Shown: positions 13,094 through 44,335 of the stretch, one piece after another
Layout of the letters: each line of letters opens with the position of its first letter
Numbering within the stretch: position 1 is the stretch's first letter
Assembly: GCA_023212645.1 (NCBI GenBank)
Contig: JALBYC010000004.1
Location: forward strand, 558,001 to 622,000
Direction: 5' to 3'
DNA from: Farysia itapuensis
Lineage: Eukaryota; Basidiomycota; Ustilaginomycetes; Ustilaginales; Ustilaginaceae
Length of the DNA: 64,000 nucleotides
Notes under the pieces: generated by a model
Databases searched by the model: none
Seen by the model: only the letters and a program-made list of their open reading frames with translations
What the model was told of the DNA's origin: nothing
Made by a program: the position numbers and the translations under genes

Positions 13094-13317
13094 TTCCACT
13101 CTGTATACCTGATTGCATTCTGTCGCGCTTCCGTCGCATAGCTCCCACGCATTTGTAGATTCTGTTTCCCGCTTTGAATTCACAGCGTTGATCGTTGAAA
13201 AGATTGTGCACTACTTGGCGCCGCGGTGGACCCTGAATTTGATCCCGCAAACATCGCGAATCTTCTCACCTTCCGCCGGATGAAGGGTCGACAGACAGGA
13301 TCCAGAGCTTGTGCTTT

Positions 13318-14913
13318 ATGAGCATGCAGGACGCAGCCGCGGAGCTCAATGACGCTTTGGCGCGAATCTTGGAGCTGCAGTCCGCTTCTGTGTCCACAAG
13401 CTCTAGCCTGATCCGTGTCTCTAATGCGGTCCCCTCCGGAAGAGGCTTGGTCTTTACACGGCATGTGGCTCCAGAGCAGCTTCTGCTCACTCTGTCGCGT
13501 GACGCACTGATCAATGTCAAGTCGTACAGAGACCATTTTCATCCAGATTCTCTGCCTGTCGGCAAGAGTCTGACCGCTGCGCAGGCGAGCAAATCGACCC
13601 TATCATCGTCACAAGCTTTGTCCCTCTTGCTTGCACGGACTGTCACCACAGACAGCAACCTCGATGCAGGAGACCCAAAAACGAGAGCTTTGCAGCTGTT
13701 TGTGAAAACAATGCCTAGATCGTTCGATACAATGCCGCTTTGCTGGCTGACCTGTGCGCAGGAGGACTCTGGTAGCTCTGCACTCTTTTTCGACAGCTTG
13801 ACGCAAGCACTGCCACGACACAGTCAGAACCTGTTGCACAAAGTGTCCGCCCGCTTTGAAAAGGACTGGTCCCGTATACAGGATCTACAAAGATCCGATC
13901 CTGACAAGCTAGCAAGTCCCATTGCGCTATCGTCTGAACCCTCTCAGGCGCGAGCAGCTGTAGCCGCCTTGGATCGATCCACGTTTCTTTGGGCTTGGTG
14001 CTGCGTTAACACACGCTGCGTCTACTTGCCTCTCCAGTTGGCCGACCATGCCGACAATTTCACCCTTGTGCCGGTTCTGGATATGTCCAATCACACCTCA
14101 GACATAGCGCTCGAATGCAAGGTTCAATACACCTCGGATGGCGGGCTGACGTTGCACGCCCCTTCAGCAGCTAATCGGCCAAGCAAAGTGCGGAGTCAAG
14201 GGCTCCAAGCTGGCGACGAATGTTTCATCACCTACGGTCCGCACTCCAATGAAAGTCTTGTGTCCGAGTACGGCTTTTGCCTGCCCCGTCAGCTCGAATT
14301 CGTTCAACCTGATCTGGACGCTCGTGCCTGGACCGGGAACAGGTACGTCGACGTTCTCGTCGATGAAGAGATCGAGCGTCTGCTACAGGACCAGGGCAGT
14401 GAAGGCGAACGCAAGATAGAGCTGCTGCAGGACCGTGGCTACTGGGGAGACCTATCCCTACACCCGTACCCAAGCCCAGCACATCCCTCTCATCGACTGG
14501 TGCCCGCTCTCCGCCTCTTGTGCCTTTCCTTGCCAACTACGCACAAGGCGTCAACGGCTGCCAAACGAGAAAAATCGAATGGGTCCAAGTCACTTAGCAG
14601 CGCAACCTCAGATCTCAACAAGTGGGAAGCCACATTGACCGGGTATGAAGACCGCGTGTCGAGTGAAAACGAACGACAAGCTCATCTGCTGCTAGCCTCT
14701 CTCTGCCAAATGAGGCTGCAAGCTGCTTCACATGCTCGAAAACACGCTGTAAAGGCAGGCAAAACCCTGCAGACCGAACTTTTACCCACGGTGACAGCAA
14801 CGGAGCTCGCAGATTGCCAATATAGCTACGCAATGGTAGAGCAACTGCTCAACGAAGAGGAGCTAGTTCTAAAACTCGTCATGCAGGCCGCCCATGACCA
14901 AACGGAATGGTGA
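13318..14913 (+). CDS. SET-domain protein methyltransferase (class VI, SETD3/RKM type)
   Basis: The 531-residue protein has a split SET domain of the Rubisco-LSMT/SETD3/Rkm class: an N-terminal part with GRGLVFTRHV (about residues 42-51), the inserted iSET region, then the LDMSNHTS motif (SAM/lysine pocket) near residue 260 and ITYGPHSNESLVSEYGF near 305-320. A helical C-terminal domain about 200 residues long, the RuBisCO-LSMT substrate-binding type, follows. Fungal members methylate lysines of ribosomal proteins or elongation factors; the target cannot be predicted. The open frame extends to a TTG at 13309; the first ATG is at 13318 and a second at 13324 is equally good. A low-complexity Lys/Ser stretch sits in the C-terminal domain. 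Confidence 0.8.
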   Translation: MSMQDAAAELNDALARILELQSASVSTSSSLIRVSNAVPSGRGLVFTRHVAPEQLLLTLSRDALINVKSYRDHFHPDSLPVGKSLTAAQASKSTLSSSQALSLLLARTVTTDSNLDAGDPKTRALQLFVKTMPRSFDTMPLCWLTCAQEDSGSSALFFDSLTQALPRHSQNLLHKVSARFEKDWSRIQDLQRSDPDKLASPIALSSEPSQARAAVAALDRSTFLWAWCCVNTRCVYLPLQLADHADNFTLVPVLDMSNHTSDIALECKVQYTSDGGLTLHAPSAANRPSKVRSQGLQAGDECFITYGPHSNESLVSEYGFCLPRQLEFVQPDLDARAWTGNRYVDVLVDEEIERLLQDQGSEGERKIELLQDRGYWGDLSLHPYPSPAHPSHRLVPALRLLCLSLPTTHKASTAAKREKSNGSKSLSSATSDLNKWEATLTGYEDRVSSENERQAHLLLASLCQMRLQAASHARKHAVKAGKTLQTELLPTVTATELADCQYSYAMVEQLLNEEELVLKLVMQAAHDQTEW

Positions 14914-15128: not shown

Positions 15129-15600
15129 TTTGCTGGCACTTGCTCTGGTGAGCACAAATGTCCTTATGATTCAGCGCGACGCGTGATACCCGACCAATGA
15201 CGGAGCGGAAGACTTCGGTTTCACTATATCAAAGTTGTTCCCACCCGGTGTGGATGGAGCTCACTCAAAGTGTGTTGCCGCTAGTGACGGTGTTGCGAGG
15301 ACATGTGCTTTCCGTCCGTGTCCTTGAGACAACCAGTGCCACTTTCTCATGTAGGCAAGTGGGCTCACTTTGCCAGCGTTCTGCGCCAGATATGCTTCGA
15401 GTGGGACTTCTTTTGCCATGATACATCTGGAAGCTTCGATGAAAGCTCTGCGGCTTCACTTACTCTGTGCAGAAGAGTTGATGACTGCCCGTCCGGACCG
15501 CATATATAGCACTGATCCAGAAGACTCCCTCCTTCGTTCTTCAGCTCACCATGACTGGACCACAAGACCTGAACTGACCGATTCAACCGTCACCTGTCCT
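15129..15600 (+). repeat. Leader of intein-like element, copy A (direct repeat)
   Basis: From TTTGCTGGCACTT at 15129 this stretch aligns nearly collinearly with 16652-17130, an offset of about 1523 bp. Shared blocks include GTTGTTCCCACCC, CCAGTGCCACTT, GGCAAGTG, ATGCTTCGAGTGGGACTTC, CTGGAAGCTTCGAT and GCTCTGCGGCTTCA. The similarity ends near 15600. The repeat unit includes the promoter (TATATA at 15503), so the whole transcription unit was duplicated. Confidence 0.75.
15503..15509 (+). promoter_or_regulatory. TATA box of element copy A
   Basis: CATATATAGCACTGATC occurs here and again at 17021-17037 in copy B. A pyrimidine-rich CTCCCTCCTTC initiator-like stretch and an ATG about 45 bp downstream follow in both copies, but that ATG reaches a stop within about ten codons in each. 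Confidence 0.55.
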
Positions 15601-15607
15601 GGTGTCA

Positions 15608-16559
15608 GGCCTTCACAGCCACCCTAACCTACCCTTACCCTGGCCATCACCGAACCTCAATGTCCCAATAGTCATATGGGCAACTCTTGTACGAGCTCGT
15701 CGCAACGGTGAACCCATCGCAAGTAACCCGGTCGAAGACCTTCGTGTGGGGGACACGCTCTTCGGTTCAAGCAACAGTCCAGCTACGGTGACAGGTGTCG
15801 GTAATTCGTACACGGCGGAGACCTTTCGATGCTCCTACATTGAGTTTCAAGCGACCAACCGTGTCTTACTCAATGTCTCGATGGACCACCCTCTGCTGCT
15901 GGTGAGCAGCGGCGTTTCGCCGAGGACTACGACATCAAAACCGCGAGTTTGTAAGTGGTATACAAGATGCTCGAGCGGAACAATTGTCGACGAGCTGCAA
16001 GACACGATATTCGACAACACCTCGGTTCCGTCTGCAGCAGATATCAAAACATTCAAAGCTATTCGACAGAGGCTTCCCCCCCGGTAAAAAGGGGGGGTGT
16101 GGAGGCCTTCGTGTCGTAGAACGATGGTTGAACACCCCAGCACAGGCAATGGCCGCGGTACAAACACTCAACTCCGCCAACTTTCGCCTCCTCGACCCAC
16201 ATCGGGTCTTGGACGGCGAGAGGTTTCAAATTTCCGGCCTCGACTTCACGGCCAATCTTTGCTCCAGCGCGGTAACTACGATAAAGACAACCACTCACCT
16301 CCAGGCTTTCCGGGTGCGACTTGCGGCCCCTACGGACTACATTGCTCGACGCGACCCTCTGCCCCTGGATCCTTGGTTTGTCGGCTTCTGGTTGGGGGAC
16401 GGCACCGTCCGCCGGACGACAGTCACCTCGAACGACGAGGAGGTGCGGACGTGGCTAAGCGACTATGCCGCCGTGCTGACGGAACAGTGCGGTGTCTTGC
16501 ACCGTGTCAGCAGTAGTCACAAGGCTACTGGCATCGTATCTGCTCATCAGCGTGCATAG
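15608..16559 (+). pseudogene. Intein/HO-like element copy A: Hint N-terminal block plus first LAGLIDADG motif, C-terminus lost
   Basis: Two overlapping frames encode one intein-like protein. The first (to 16087) has a Hint block A-like stretch (ATLV...NGEPI...VEDLRVGDTLFG) and block B (VSMDHPLLLV) with its conserved His. The cysteine expected at the first intein residue is absent, so protein splicing is not expected. After a C-run/A-run/G-run at about 16076-16096 the frame shifts by one; a GTAAAA donor-like site there means a short intron is an alternative. The second frame runs to the first LAGLIDADG helix (WFVGFWLGDG, about 16374-16403) and stops about 40 codons later at 16559, before the second motif. 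No ATG precedes the Hint block. Architecture matches the VMA1-intein/HO/WHO family rather than a group I intron enzyme. Flanking genes are unrelated to known intein hosts. Confidence 0.65.
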
Positions 16560-16651
16560 CGAACTTCTTTAATGTCTTGGAACAAGACGACCGCGGGGTC
16601 ACCGTGTCGGAGGTGTTGGGTCCCAATTGATGCTCGGGAACTTGTCTCACC

Positions 16652-17130
16652 TTTGCTGGCACTTATCCTGGTGGGTGAATTTGCATTTATGCTTTAGTGC
16701 GAGACGTGAGTCTCGCTCCTTGACGGAATGAGTGACTCAAGTCTCCACTGCATCAAGGTTGTTCCCACCCTGTGGGCATAGATCTTACTTAAAGTCTGTC
16801 GCTGCTGATGACACTGTTGCGAGGAAAACGTGCGTTCCCACCGAGATAGCCAGTGCCACTTTTTTCATTTAGGCAAGTGAAAATAGACTCGACATGCGTC
16901 GTGCGCCAATTATGCTTCGAGTGGGACTTCATTTGCCTTTTCACAGCTGGAAGCTTCGATCGAAGCTCTGCGGCTTCATTTCTTCTGTGCGAAAGAATCT
17001 ATGGTGGCCCGTCTGGATCACATATATAGCACTGATCTTAAAGACCTCCCTCCTTCTTTCTTCACCTCACCTCGACCGGACCATGAGACCTGCACTAATC
17101 GACTAAACGGCCACCTGCCATAGTTTCGGC
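16652..17130 (+). repeat. Leader of intein-like element, copy B (direct repeat)
   Basis: This stretch is the second copy of the leader at 15129-15600. It includes the same TATA context (17021-17030) and ends at the point where copy A continues into the Hint region. Copy B then jumps to sequence equal to copy A near 16365, so about 730 bp corresponding to the Hint N-terminal half has been deleted. Confidence 0.75.
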
Positions 17131-17170
17131 CCTCTATAGCTGATCTCACCAGTACTAAGACCCTTTGCCC

Positions 17171-17881
17171 ATGAATCCTTGGTTCGTTGGTCTCTGGTTC
17201 GGGGATTGCACCGTCCGCCGGACGACCGTCACCTCGAACGATGAGGAGGTGCGAAGGAAGCAGAGCGGTGTCTTGCACCGGGTCAGCAGCAGTCACAGGG
17301 CTGCTGGCACTGTCAGTACGGCGGGGATAGTATCGACAACGGCGAATTCAGACCACACAATTGTTACAAAGCAGGGCGGATGGACGGTCAATCTTGTTGC
17401 GGACGGACTGCAAGAGCTGGGGATTCACGACGCCAAGACCGGCATACCATGGCGGATCTTGGACGGTTCTGGGGAGGAGAAGCTCAAATGCTTGGCAGGG
17501 TTGATCGATGCAGACGGGACTCCAGAAAGGAATGGCTACTCCCTTATTCAGTGCAACGATTACCACCGGCAAATTGCCGTGGACGCGAGGGACCTGGCCG
17601 TATCTTGTGACATATCTGTCTCGAGCGTCCATGCTTATACAAGGCCCAACGCCACCACTGGCAGGAGTATCACTGTCTACAAGATCGAGCTCTCGACTAA
17701 CTTCGAAAAGCTGAACCTCTACCTCCAGATCGCCCGGAAGCGCGTGGAACCAAAAGCGCGAGTAAAGTCCGATTTACTACGGGTCGTCAAACTTAGCGAA
17801 GGCGAGAGGAGCCTTATACAGCCGATCGAGGCAACGAGCAACGATATGCAGCTTGCAAACGGACTGATAGTCCACTGCTGA
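17171..17881 (+). CDS. Intein/HO-like element copy B: free-standing two-motif LAGLIDADG protein with Hint C-terminal tail
   Basis: An intact 236-codon frame with its own ATG starts about 140 bp after a TATA box. Motif 1 (FVGLWFGDC, residues 6-13) and motif 2 (LAGLIDADG, 108-116) both keep the acidic residue expected to bind metal (D12, D115). IPWRILDGSGEEK before motif 2 matches the linker of VMA1-type inteins. The C-terminus (MQLANGLIVHC) matches the intein block G, which normally ends His-Asn followed by Cys, but the Asn is missing. Splicing or C-terminal cleavage should be dead while DNA-binding/cleavage might survive. Relative to copy A, about 10 residues between the motif-1 helix and GVLHRV are deleted in frame. 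It could be an active relic endonuclease, a domesticated HO/WHO-like factor, or a decaying fragment that happens to be open. Confidence 0.65.
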   Translation: MNPWFVGLWFGDCTVRRTTVTSNDEEVRRKQSGVLHRVSSSHRAAGTVSTAGIVSTTANSDHTIVTKQGGWTVNLVADGLQELGIHDAKTGIPWRILDGSGEEKLKCLAGLIDADGTPERNGYSLIQCNDYHRQIAVDARDLAVSCDISVSSVHAYTRPNATTGRSITVYKIELSTNFEKLNLYLQIARKRVEPKARVKSDLLRVVKLSEGERSLIQPIEATSNDMQLANGLIVHC

Positions 17882-18469: not shown

Positions 18470-19648
18470 CTAAAAGTTCTTTGCACTGAGGTTAGTGCGT
18501 CGCTTCTGCAGGGCAGTAGCGTCGCCGCCTCGGCTGACAGTCTCGGCGATCTTCTGGTCAAGAATGTCAGCGTGAAGGGTCTCGGCACGCTCGATAGACT
18601 TGACGTGCTCGGCGTGCAGGTGGCCAAGGGTGACGGCTGCCGGGGGTCGTCGAGTGTCCGAGAGGAAGAAGGTGTAGATTCCGACACCGATAAGGGTAGC
18701 GGGCAGGTTGGTCAGAGCGGCCAGGGCAGTGTACTTGGCGGGGAAGCATTCGGATCCCCAGAAAATACCACAGGTGAATCGGGCACCAAGGTCACGTGCA
18801 GTGTTGGCGGCAACATTGGAGGAGGAGAAGCACCAAACAACGACGGCGAATCCAAGACCAATGGTGTAAGGAGCAACCTGAGGACCAGTGAAGGGGTTGG
18901 CGCCGTCCAAGTTGGCCCAAACAATCATGGCGACCAAGACATCGGCGAAAAATTCGTTGACAAAGATCGAGCCCAATGATCGACCGGGGGTAGGGAACAA
19001 TGCGATAGCGCCGGCAGGTCCAGCAGCAGTGAAGATAGCAGCGCCCTTGCCCTCAGCACGAAGAAGAGCTGTGACTTTGAACAATTCATCGTGCCAACAA
19101 GCAACGACAATCAATGAAGCGACAAATCCACCGAGAAGTTGAGCAGCAATGTAGAAGGGAGCTTTGGAGACAGGGAAACCTTTGAACACCACCTGCGCCA
19201 GCGTGAAGCCCGGGTGGAATTGACCTCCAGACGTCGTAGCACAGACGACGATGGCGAAGGTGATACCGAAGGCGTAGGCGAAACCGATCATGGTCAAGTT
19301 TCCTTGGGGGTTGCCTGCGTAAGTTGTGAGGAGGTAGCCTGCGCCTGCCATTTCACCGGCAAGACAATAGAACATGGTGCCGAAGAACTCAGCGACGAGG
19401 GCGGGGATGAGGTCACCTCGGTAGTGCTCCCAGACGTGACGACCCTTCCATTCGCTGAGACCGCCGGTGGCGGGGACGTGTCGGTTGACATCATCTCGGC
19501 CCTCGAGAATGTCGGTGACACCGAGCTCGAGCTCGCCTCGGCCACGGTGGGCACGCTGGAAGTGGTGGCTGGAGGCGCTGCCGTCCTTGTCGCTAGTGTC
19601 GTGAGTCATGTGCTCGGCAGGGATGTAGGTGGGGGTTGGCTGAGCCAT
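18470..19648 (-). CDS. Aquaporin/MIP-family channel with altered NPA boxes
   Basis: The 392-residue protein has the six-TM MIP plan with two half-helix loops. The first NPA box reads HPG (GGQFHPGFTLAQ) and the second NTA (NVAANTARDLGARF); the arginine of the selectivity filter after the second box is kept. A hydrophilic N-terminus of about 75 residues (His/Asp-rich, with GELELGVTDILEGRDDVNRH) precedes TM1, and a Lys/Arg-rich C-terminus of about 60 residues follows TM6. Both boxes being non-canonical points to a fungus-specific clade of orphan aquaporins rather than a classical water channel or FPS1-type glycerol facilitator; transported solute is unknown. A TATA box stands about 75-85 bp upstream of the ATG. 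Confidence 0.85.
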   Translation of the reverse strand: MAQPTPTYIPAEHMTHDTSDKDGSASSHHFQRAHRGRGELELGVTDILEGRDDVNRHVPATGGLSEWKGRHVWEHYRGDLIPALVAEFFGTMFYCLAGEMAGAGYLLTTYAGNPQGNLTMIGFAYAFGITFAIVVCATTSGGQFHPGFTLAQVVFKGFPVSKAPFYIAAQLLGGFVASLIVVACWHDELFKVTALLRAEGKGAAIFTAAGPAGAIALFPTPGRSLGSIFVNEFFADVLVAMIVWANLDGANPFTGPQVAPYTIGLGFAVVVWCFSSSNVAANTARDLGARFTCGIFWGSECFPAKYTALAALTNLPATLIGVGIYTFFLSDTRRPPAAVTLGHLHAEHVKSIERAETLHADILDQKIAETVSRGGDATALQKRRTNLSAKNF

Positions 19649-43700: not shown

Positions 43701-44135
43701 ATTGGCAGAGCAGAATGCGGGGGCTCTTTCAAGGTTCTGGAACGTCGCGGAAATGCCTTCCACCTTGACCTTCCGGCCAGCATCAAGGTCCATCCTGTCA
43801 TCAACGCGTCGAGCCTTCGTCGCGCAGCAAACGACCCTCTGCCTGGCCAACAGAACGCCGAGCCGCCTCCGTTGATCGTTGACAACAATGAAGAATGGAA
43901 AATCGATCATATTCGCAGCGTTCGACTTAAGCGCAACAAGCTCTTCTATAGAATCGCTTGGAAAGGATACGATCAAGATCTAGACGAATACCCAGCCAGC
44001 TACCTCAAGAATGCTCCCCAGGCTCTCAAAGCATTCCACGATGCGTATCCGAGCCTCTCGGGTCCTCCCGTAAACTTGGACTATTGGAACGAAGCAGCTA
44101 ACGCTGACAAATGTAATGTGAGCGAGTGTGAGTGA
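43701..44135 (+). pseudogene. C-terminal tail of Ty3/gypsy integrase with chromodomain (chromovirus)
   Basis: A frame open from 43701 encodes the typical gypsy integrase tail: a GPFK-like GSFKVLERRGNAFHLDLPAS start, IKVHPVINASSL (the HPVFHVSLL block), an NDPLPGQQNAEPPP linker, then a chromodomain (EEWKIDHIRSVRLKRNKLFYRIAWKGY... with conserved aromatic residues) at about 43881-44025. No reverse transcriptase, RNase H, protease, gag or LTR is visible, so it is a solo 3' fragment with an immediate upstream stop (43698). It is a yeast/fungal retrotransposon remnant, not a virus of animals or crops. Confidence 0.8.
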
Positions 44136-44335
44136 GACTGTGAGTGTGAGAGTCACAGCGTGAATGTGAGTGTGCTAGTGTGAGTGTCGATCCTACCGTG
44201 CGAAATGTCATACTGTCATACATCATTTCACACTCACAGACTGTGACTTCTTCCGGTAGACCCTGGCCGATTCCGCCGAAATTGTACTCTGTGACTGCAT
44301 CACACGCACTCACGAGTCACAACTGTAGCGCGATC
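44110..44335. repeat. GTGAG-rich inverted repeat region
   Basis: Alternating GTGAG and GTGTGAG units (about 44118-44185) face TCACACTCACAG-type units (about 44228-44320). CTGTGAGTGTGA at 44138-44149 and TCACACTCACAG at 44228-44239 form a perfect inverted pair. The region lies between the gypsy fragment and the ATG of the mitochondrial carrier, so it may act in the carrier's 5' region or be a remnant of mobile-element ends. Confidence 0.55.

Follow-up and report, generated by a model that had tools for sequence, protein, structure and literature searches.

We analyzed a 64,000-nucleotide stretch of contig C34 (hereafter, the window) from the 13.7-Mb genome of Farysia itapuensis. Within it, the end of an open frame at 14913 and a convergent aquaporin gene bracket two direct copies of an intein-like element, copy A followed by copy B. 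A sequence-only reading of this DNA had named the flanking genes as a SET protein and an aquaporin; the latter name was correct (MIP family), whereas the gene at 13243-14910 called a SET protein matched no Pfam family at E ≤ 1e-5. The best named relative of the aquaporin comes from Testicularia cyperi (86% identity), followed by Sporisorium (79%) and Ustilago (77%), and one further relative reaches 92%. Testicularia belongs to the Ustilaginales (Basidiomycota), which makes a smut-group basidiomycete the most likely host, in agreement with the basidiomycete setting assumed earlier. Elsewhere in the window, positions 44117-44187 form a short GAGTGT-type tandem array.

Table 1 Features of the tandem pair and the gene on its right, in window coordinates
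Feature	Position	Strand	Description
Leader, copy A	15129..15613	+	promoter-like; TATATA at ~15503; 73% identity to leader B over 491 bp
Hint N-terminal part, copy A	15731..16015	+	splicing-domain relic; tblastn match to residues 22-115 of P0003, a stand-alone Lipomyces protein, E 1e-8
Cys-rich region and LAGLIDADG motif 1, copy A	16107..16466	+	tblastn match to P0003 residues 315-430; frame differs from that of the Hint part
Stretch common to A and B, in copy A (motif 1)	16353..16532	+	73% identity over 181 bp
End of copy A	16545..16651	+	no detectable homology to copy B or to the right flank of copy B
Leader, copy B	16652..17134	+	promoter-like; TATATA at ~17023; homologous to leader A
Open frame of copy B	17159..17881	+	240 codons plus stop; predicted LAGLIDADG endonuclease; C-terminal block ends VHC-stop
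Aquaporin gene (MIP family)	18473..19648	-	flanking, outside the element

Homology between the two leaders was the point on which the description of two direct copies sharing a TATA block had been made to depend beforehand, and it is clear: blastn aligns them at 73.3% identity (E ~1e-76), their local alignment score is 324 against a maximum of 27 in 200 single-base shuffles, and TATATA is present in both. Copy A keeps the Hint start and motif 1 and then stops; the resemblance of its last codons to the C-terminal block is faint and not significant (profile score -2.9, below the best shuffles). A single frame change separates its two coding parts and falls within neighboring C, A and G runs near 16078-16095, making an assembly error at these runs a possible cause. 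Copy A carries Ile where the splicing Cys is expected (aligned by eye), and the Hint frame has no ATG ahead of the Hint part, introns being left out of account. In copy B the leader runs straight into motif 1, followed by motif 2 and the C-terminal block in one open frame that tblastn matches to P0003 residues 395-656 (17159-17878); its first in-frame ATG lies at 17171, and both catalytic Asp codons (17204 and 17513) are present. The losses are complementary, as had been proposed for this pair of stand-alone intein-like genes: the segment at ~15597-16352 in copy A is absent from copy B, the copy B sequence after ~17309 is absent from copy A, and the motif 1 overlap corresponds to 17159-17308 in copy B.

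Complementary parts with a leader on each could be read as two halves that cooperate as a split endonuclease, and the open frame of copy B would fit such a role: in simulations, the chance that it remained without a stop at 15% neutral divergence was 0.046. Copy B by itself holds both motifs, however, and copy A has a frame change before motif 1 and no start codon ahead of its Hint part, and we give cooperation almost no credence.

Protein searches of the genome recovered at least seven copies or fragments at four or more loci (on contigs C34, C52, C26 and C32), most of them decayed; two of the four loci (C34 and C26) are clusters. The C52 copy is a 451-codon open frame whose neighbors, by Pfam, encode a sugar transporter and a RING protein. 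Three copies lie at C26, where the neighbors, again by Pfam, are genes for ribosomal L16/L10e and an MFS transporter; two of these are broken and point in the same direction, and the third is an inverted fragment. The C32 copy, next to dUTPase and MFS transporter genes, is a short relic. Convergent frames bracket the copies at C34, C52 and C32. The sequence-only reading had suggested looking for a full-length copy elsewhere; related copies occur at C52, C26 and C32, but these searches saw no undamaged full-length one in this genome.

At C26, copies 1 and 2 share 73% identity along 722 bp. An inverted 96% match (736 bp) links copy 3 to the end of copy 1 together with its 3′ flank, and the inverted segment looks much younger than the rest; the stretch ahead of copy 3 matches the leader of copy 2 (70% over 374 bp). 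The 96% segment, which contains a 3′ half-element plus flank beside the ribosomal L16/L10e gene, lies at L011:2972-3706 and at 10103-10835 of L011 and L012 joined. A same-strand comparison of leaders between loci returned only the within-locus pairs (A with B, and C26 copy 2 with copy 3) and two short chance words.

The marks of a working intein (Cys, Ser or Thr at position 1, a His-Asn end and exteins) are missing: in copy A no Cys is seen by eye, and copy B lacks the N-terminal part altogether and terminates in VHC-stop. Stop codons directly follow the intein end in four copies (VHSL in C52, VHC in copy B and VRS in both C26 copies 1 and 2). The flanks at C34 and C52, searched against the whole genome, each match only themselves; the earlier claim that no intein host gene surrounds the pair is supported. 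The glutamate synthase gene (GLT1) of this genome reads MRKCHLNT unbroken (i.e., its intein site is empty). GLT1 target-site remnants were sought in nine flank and leader stretches on both strands (18 tests), with no significant result (lowest shuffle share 0.10) and no remnant at C34; extein remnants were likewise not found in the copies of this genome. At C34, the left flank, A/B junction and right flank share no word of eight or more bases, and neither a target-site duplication nor a duplicated flank was found. Along their whole length the proteins look like inteins, as they would if the inteins sat, or had recently sat, inside a decayed host gene, but the stops at the intein ends, the TATA-bearing leader before each C34 copy, the unmatched flanks and the intact, empty GLT1 make that history very improbable.

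Copy B and C52 retain both catalytic aspartates and both LAGLIDADG motifs, and their frames stop at the intein end with no C-terminal zinc finger (CxxC motifs). The Pfam Hom_end model scores copy B just under its cut-off (19.6 versus 21.1 bits) and C26 copy 2 above it; Pfam found no match on the frames of copy A, and NCBIfam gave no useful match for five proteins.

The best-known intein to have turned into a free gene, and later into a tool of its host, is the one from which yeast HO is thought to derive. The sequence-only reading had placed the pair with HO and WHO, as derivatives of the VMA1 intein. We compared 10 fragments from this genome with lineage profiles built without its sequences, a GLT1-intein profile of two sequences and a VMA1+HO profile of one VMA1 and one HO sequence. 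The GLT1 profile scored 86.8 bits on copy B, 38.6 and 68.1 on the two frames of copy A (the former being the Hint frame, 15578-16084), 199.4 on C52, and 43.3, 76.7 and 94.4 on C26 fragments. The corresponding VMA1+HO scores were 8.6, -3.2, 9.6, 23.1, none, 9.9 and 20.0 bits, and on the remaining three fragments neither profile exceeded 11 bits. Even DnaB inteins (43.5 bits) and an Hsp70 intein (45.5 bits) fit copy B better than VMA1+HO did.

A cysteine signature, W-x-[TSAGF]-[RKW]-C and C-(x)-(C/G)-x-G-[FILV]-[RK], points the same way, though these are loose patterns picked after seeing the family: both occur in 23 of 39 family proteins, in none of 120 other intein matches and in neither of VMA1 and HO. 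Among our fragments, C52 and C26 copy 1 have both and each of the two copy A frames has one; the region is absent from copy B and the other fragments, C32 giving a stray match.

Trees grouped the copies with the GLT1 inteins, stand-alone Lipomyces proteins and a Microstroma protein. For the larger tree, 72 rows were offered and 58 passed a filter (more than 75% of an endonuclease profile that included two rows from this genome, span below 420) that C26 copy 1 and HO failed; with P0071 and P0085 dropped, 56 rows remained, and the family formed one clade of 33 rows (100/97) with VMA1 outside. In a tree of 28 hand-picked rows plus HO, the family clade (17 rows) and a separate VMA1+HO clade each had 100/100 support. 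The nearest outside relative in both trees is P0007, an Hsp70-like protein with an intein and endonuclease (89/73 in the 56-row and 95/99 in the 29-row tree). Several branches are long, and AU tests did not reject forcing the rows of this genome into a group with VMA1 and HO (p 0.131, at a cost of 11.8 in log-likelihood) or uniting all fungal rows with VMA1 and HO as one clade (p 0.262). The clade from this genome branches beside the GLT1 inteins as their sister group, not among them, and another gene of the lineage, such as chitin synthase, could therefore have been the last intein host; GLT inteins, and no CHS intein, were among the sequences compared.

Structure comparison brings PI-SceI to the top. 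The predicted model of copy B (mean pLDDT 75.5, with the last 40 residues modeled poorly) has PI-SceI as its top fold match (E 2e-7, TM 0.58 by query length), as does the model of P0083, a GLT1 intein (pLDDT 71.9, pTM 0.46; E 2e-17, TM 0.41 by query and 0.56 by target length). PI-SceI is also the best solved-structure match by sequence (E 8e-15), and a PDB sequence search with copy B alone gave no match at E ≤ 1. The structure match lists contain no other fungal intein with an endonuclease, so PI-SceI would rank first anyway. These matches and the AU result are what speak for an origin from the VMA1 intein; the profile scores, the missing zinc finger and the fully supported separate VMA1+HO clade speak against it, and we consider it improbable. 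By best profile match and by clade, the copies belong with the GLT-type intein lineage, subject to the AU result (p 0.131).

The C52 frame had 65 matches at E ≤ 0.01 in a protein database, led by P0001 (60% identity), Lipomyces proteins and a Microstroma protein and followed mostly by proteins with intein, helicase or terminase domains, and an alignment-based search gave 105 matches, many of them from Lipomyces. The closest named relatives are stand-alone proteins of these ascomycetes, annotated as hypothetical or as DOD-type homing endonucleases, with as many as six entries, fragments among them, under a single genome prefix (V1527, L. starkeyi). Others are genuine inteins: P0098 is a glutamate synthase that runs into an intein after ...GCIMMRK, P0083 and P0084 read MRK-[intein]-CHLNT, and the P0083 and P0098 inteins are 39% identical over 199 residues from MRKCL on. 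These exteins (MRK...CHLNT) mark all three as GLT1 inteins, at the site that is empty in the GLT1 of our genome.

Both catalytic Asp residues are kept in all 28 of the chosen aligned rows, only 3 of which have a His-Asn end. Gly has replaced the splicing Cys in 15 of the 17 Lipomyces rows, and the other two keep the Cys; P0076, outside the 28 rows, also keeps it. Loss of the Cys and rarity of the His-Asn end alongside retained Asp residues indicate that splicing was lost and the endonuclease kept. Some stand-alone Lipomyces proteins have extein-like letters past the intein end (CHLNS in P0070, CQLNS in P0072). Five Lipomyces proteins (P0072, P0079, P0080, P0086 and P0087) are 717-905 residues long, with extra sequence past the intein end seen in P0072 and P0079, and P0072 starts with part of an aldehyde dehydrogenase; by analogy with WHO, the extra sequence in the five is possibly captured pieces of host genes. 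The Microstroma glucosiphilum protein P0006 (567 aa, with Met aligned by eye to the splicing Cys) is, like the Farysia copies, stand-alone and from a basidiomycete of the same subphylum, but it is distant, at 32% identity to the C52 copy.

Only two pairs of copies were close enough for dN/dS analysis. For C26 copies 1 and 2, dN/dS was 0.12 (dS 1.56, 178 codons), and the observed pN/pS of 0.25 fell below the minimum of 0.60 in 200 neutral simulations. For the coding sequence shared by A and B, which comprises only 53 codons, dN/dS was 0.26 (dS 0.45), and the pN/pS of 0.32 was reached in 3 of about 500 simulations. Selection thus seems to have shaped how A and B diverged, which implies that both were probably working while they diverged and that the deletions came late.

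How the pair arose can be read in two ways. Copies A and B are closer to each other (78% over 54 residues) than to the other copies in this genome (32-43%), and this, together with their direct order and homologous leaders, is what one would expect had a single resident stand-alone gene been duplicated in tandem by ordinary recombination, both copies then decaying and the lineage showing no mobility. The spread of members over four places on different contigs, the inverted copy in one cluster and the uneven divergence of neighbors (dS 0.45 and 1.56) suggest repeated arrivals instead, and we regard duplication with no mobility as rather unlikely. The earlier proposal that a full element was duplicated and each copy then lost a part is still possible for A and B themselves, but by analogy with WHO clusters, successive integrations would explain their selected divergence as well as duplication does.

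Two known systems bear on this interpretation. Fungal GLT and CHS inteins (PMC5784728, PMC5056185) resemble our copies in having the Hint part first, then the Cys-rich region and the LAGLIDADG domain, and by profile and tree (GLT only compared) they belong to the same protein family; in contrast to them, the copies are stand-alone, have lost the splicing residues and lie outside GLT1. PMC5784728 places GLT and CHS inteins in a single cluster and HO with VMA1, and lists GLT inteins for Pezizomycotina and Saccharomycotina only. The second system, WHO and HO, comprises stand-alone, intein-derived and non-splicing LAGLIDADG genes with no working block G, and WHO forms clusters of working genes and pseudogenes with low identity between neighbors (PMC7282813). 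Such clustering without exteins is matched by our copies at C34 and C26. The copies differ from these genes in belonging by profile to another intein lineage, in lacking a C-terminal zinc finger, in having neighbors other than FBA1 and in showing no target-gene fragment, with the 96% inverted C26 copy and its 3′ flank as a possible exception. The stand-alone Lipomyces proteins are alike in occurring several per genome, in mostly having Gly at the splicing Cys and in often ending at the old splice site, but they are ascomycete proteins and many are full-length. We therefore class the elements as WHO-like in habit, and not as members of WHO or HO.

Together, these data make it likely, in our judgment, that the two copies are what decay has left of a pair of non-splicing, stand-alone genes belonging to the GLT1-type intein lineage, genes that were presumably mobile by break repair in the manner of WHO. 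Each gene would have consisted of its own promoter-like leader, a Hint-derived part and a LAGLIDADG endonuclease whose end coincides with the former splice site. The active protein presumably cut a chromosomal site, and repair of the break would have copied the element in; by analogy with WHO elements in yeasts, copies may have settled in intergenic gaps and accumulated in tandem. We infer DNA-cutting mobile genes, with a target and with homing or transposition, that spread by break repair and clustered as described for WHO (PMC7282813).

GLT inteins and WHO elements are already known, the latter being the stepping stone from intein to HO described so far (PMC7282813). What appears new is stand-alone genes from the GLT lineage, for which a literature search (subscription journals mostly outside it) found no report. 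We lean slightly toward a broader view, in which a second class of WHO-like elements, clustering, non-splicing and stand-alone, descends from GLT-type inteins and occurs in Lipomyces yeasts and smut-group basidiomycetes, so that the passage of an intein into a free mobile endonuclease, until now linked to the origin of HO, took place more than once. Many Lipomyces copies are available for direct tests of cleavage, and if a separate lineage shares these habits, the route from intein to free gene becomes both repeatable and comparable.
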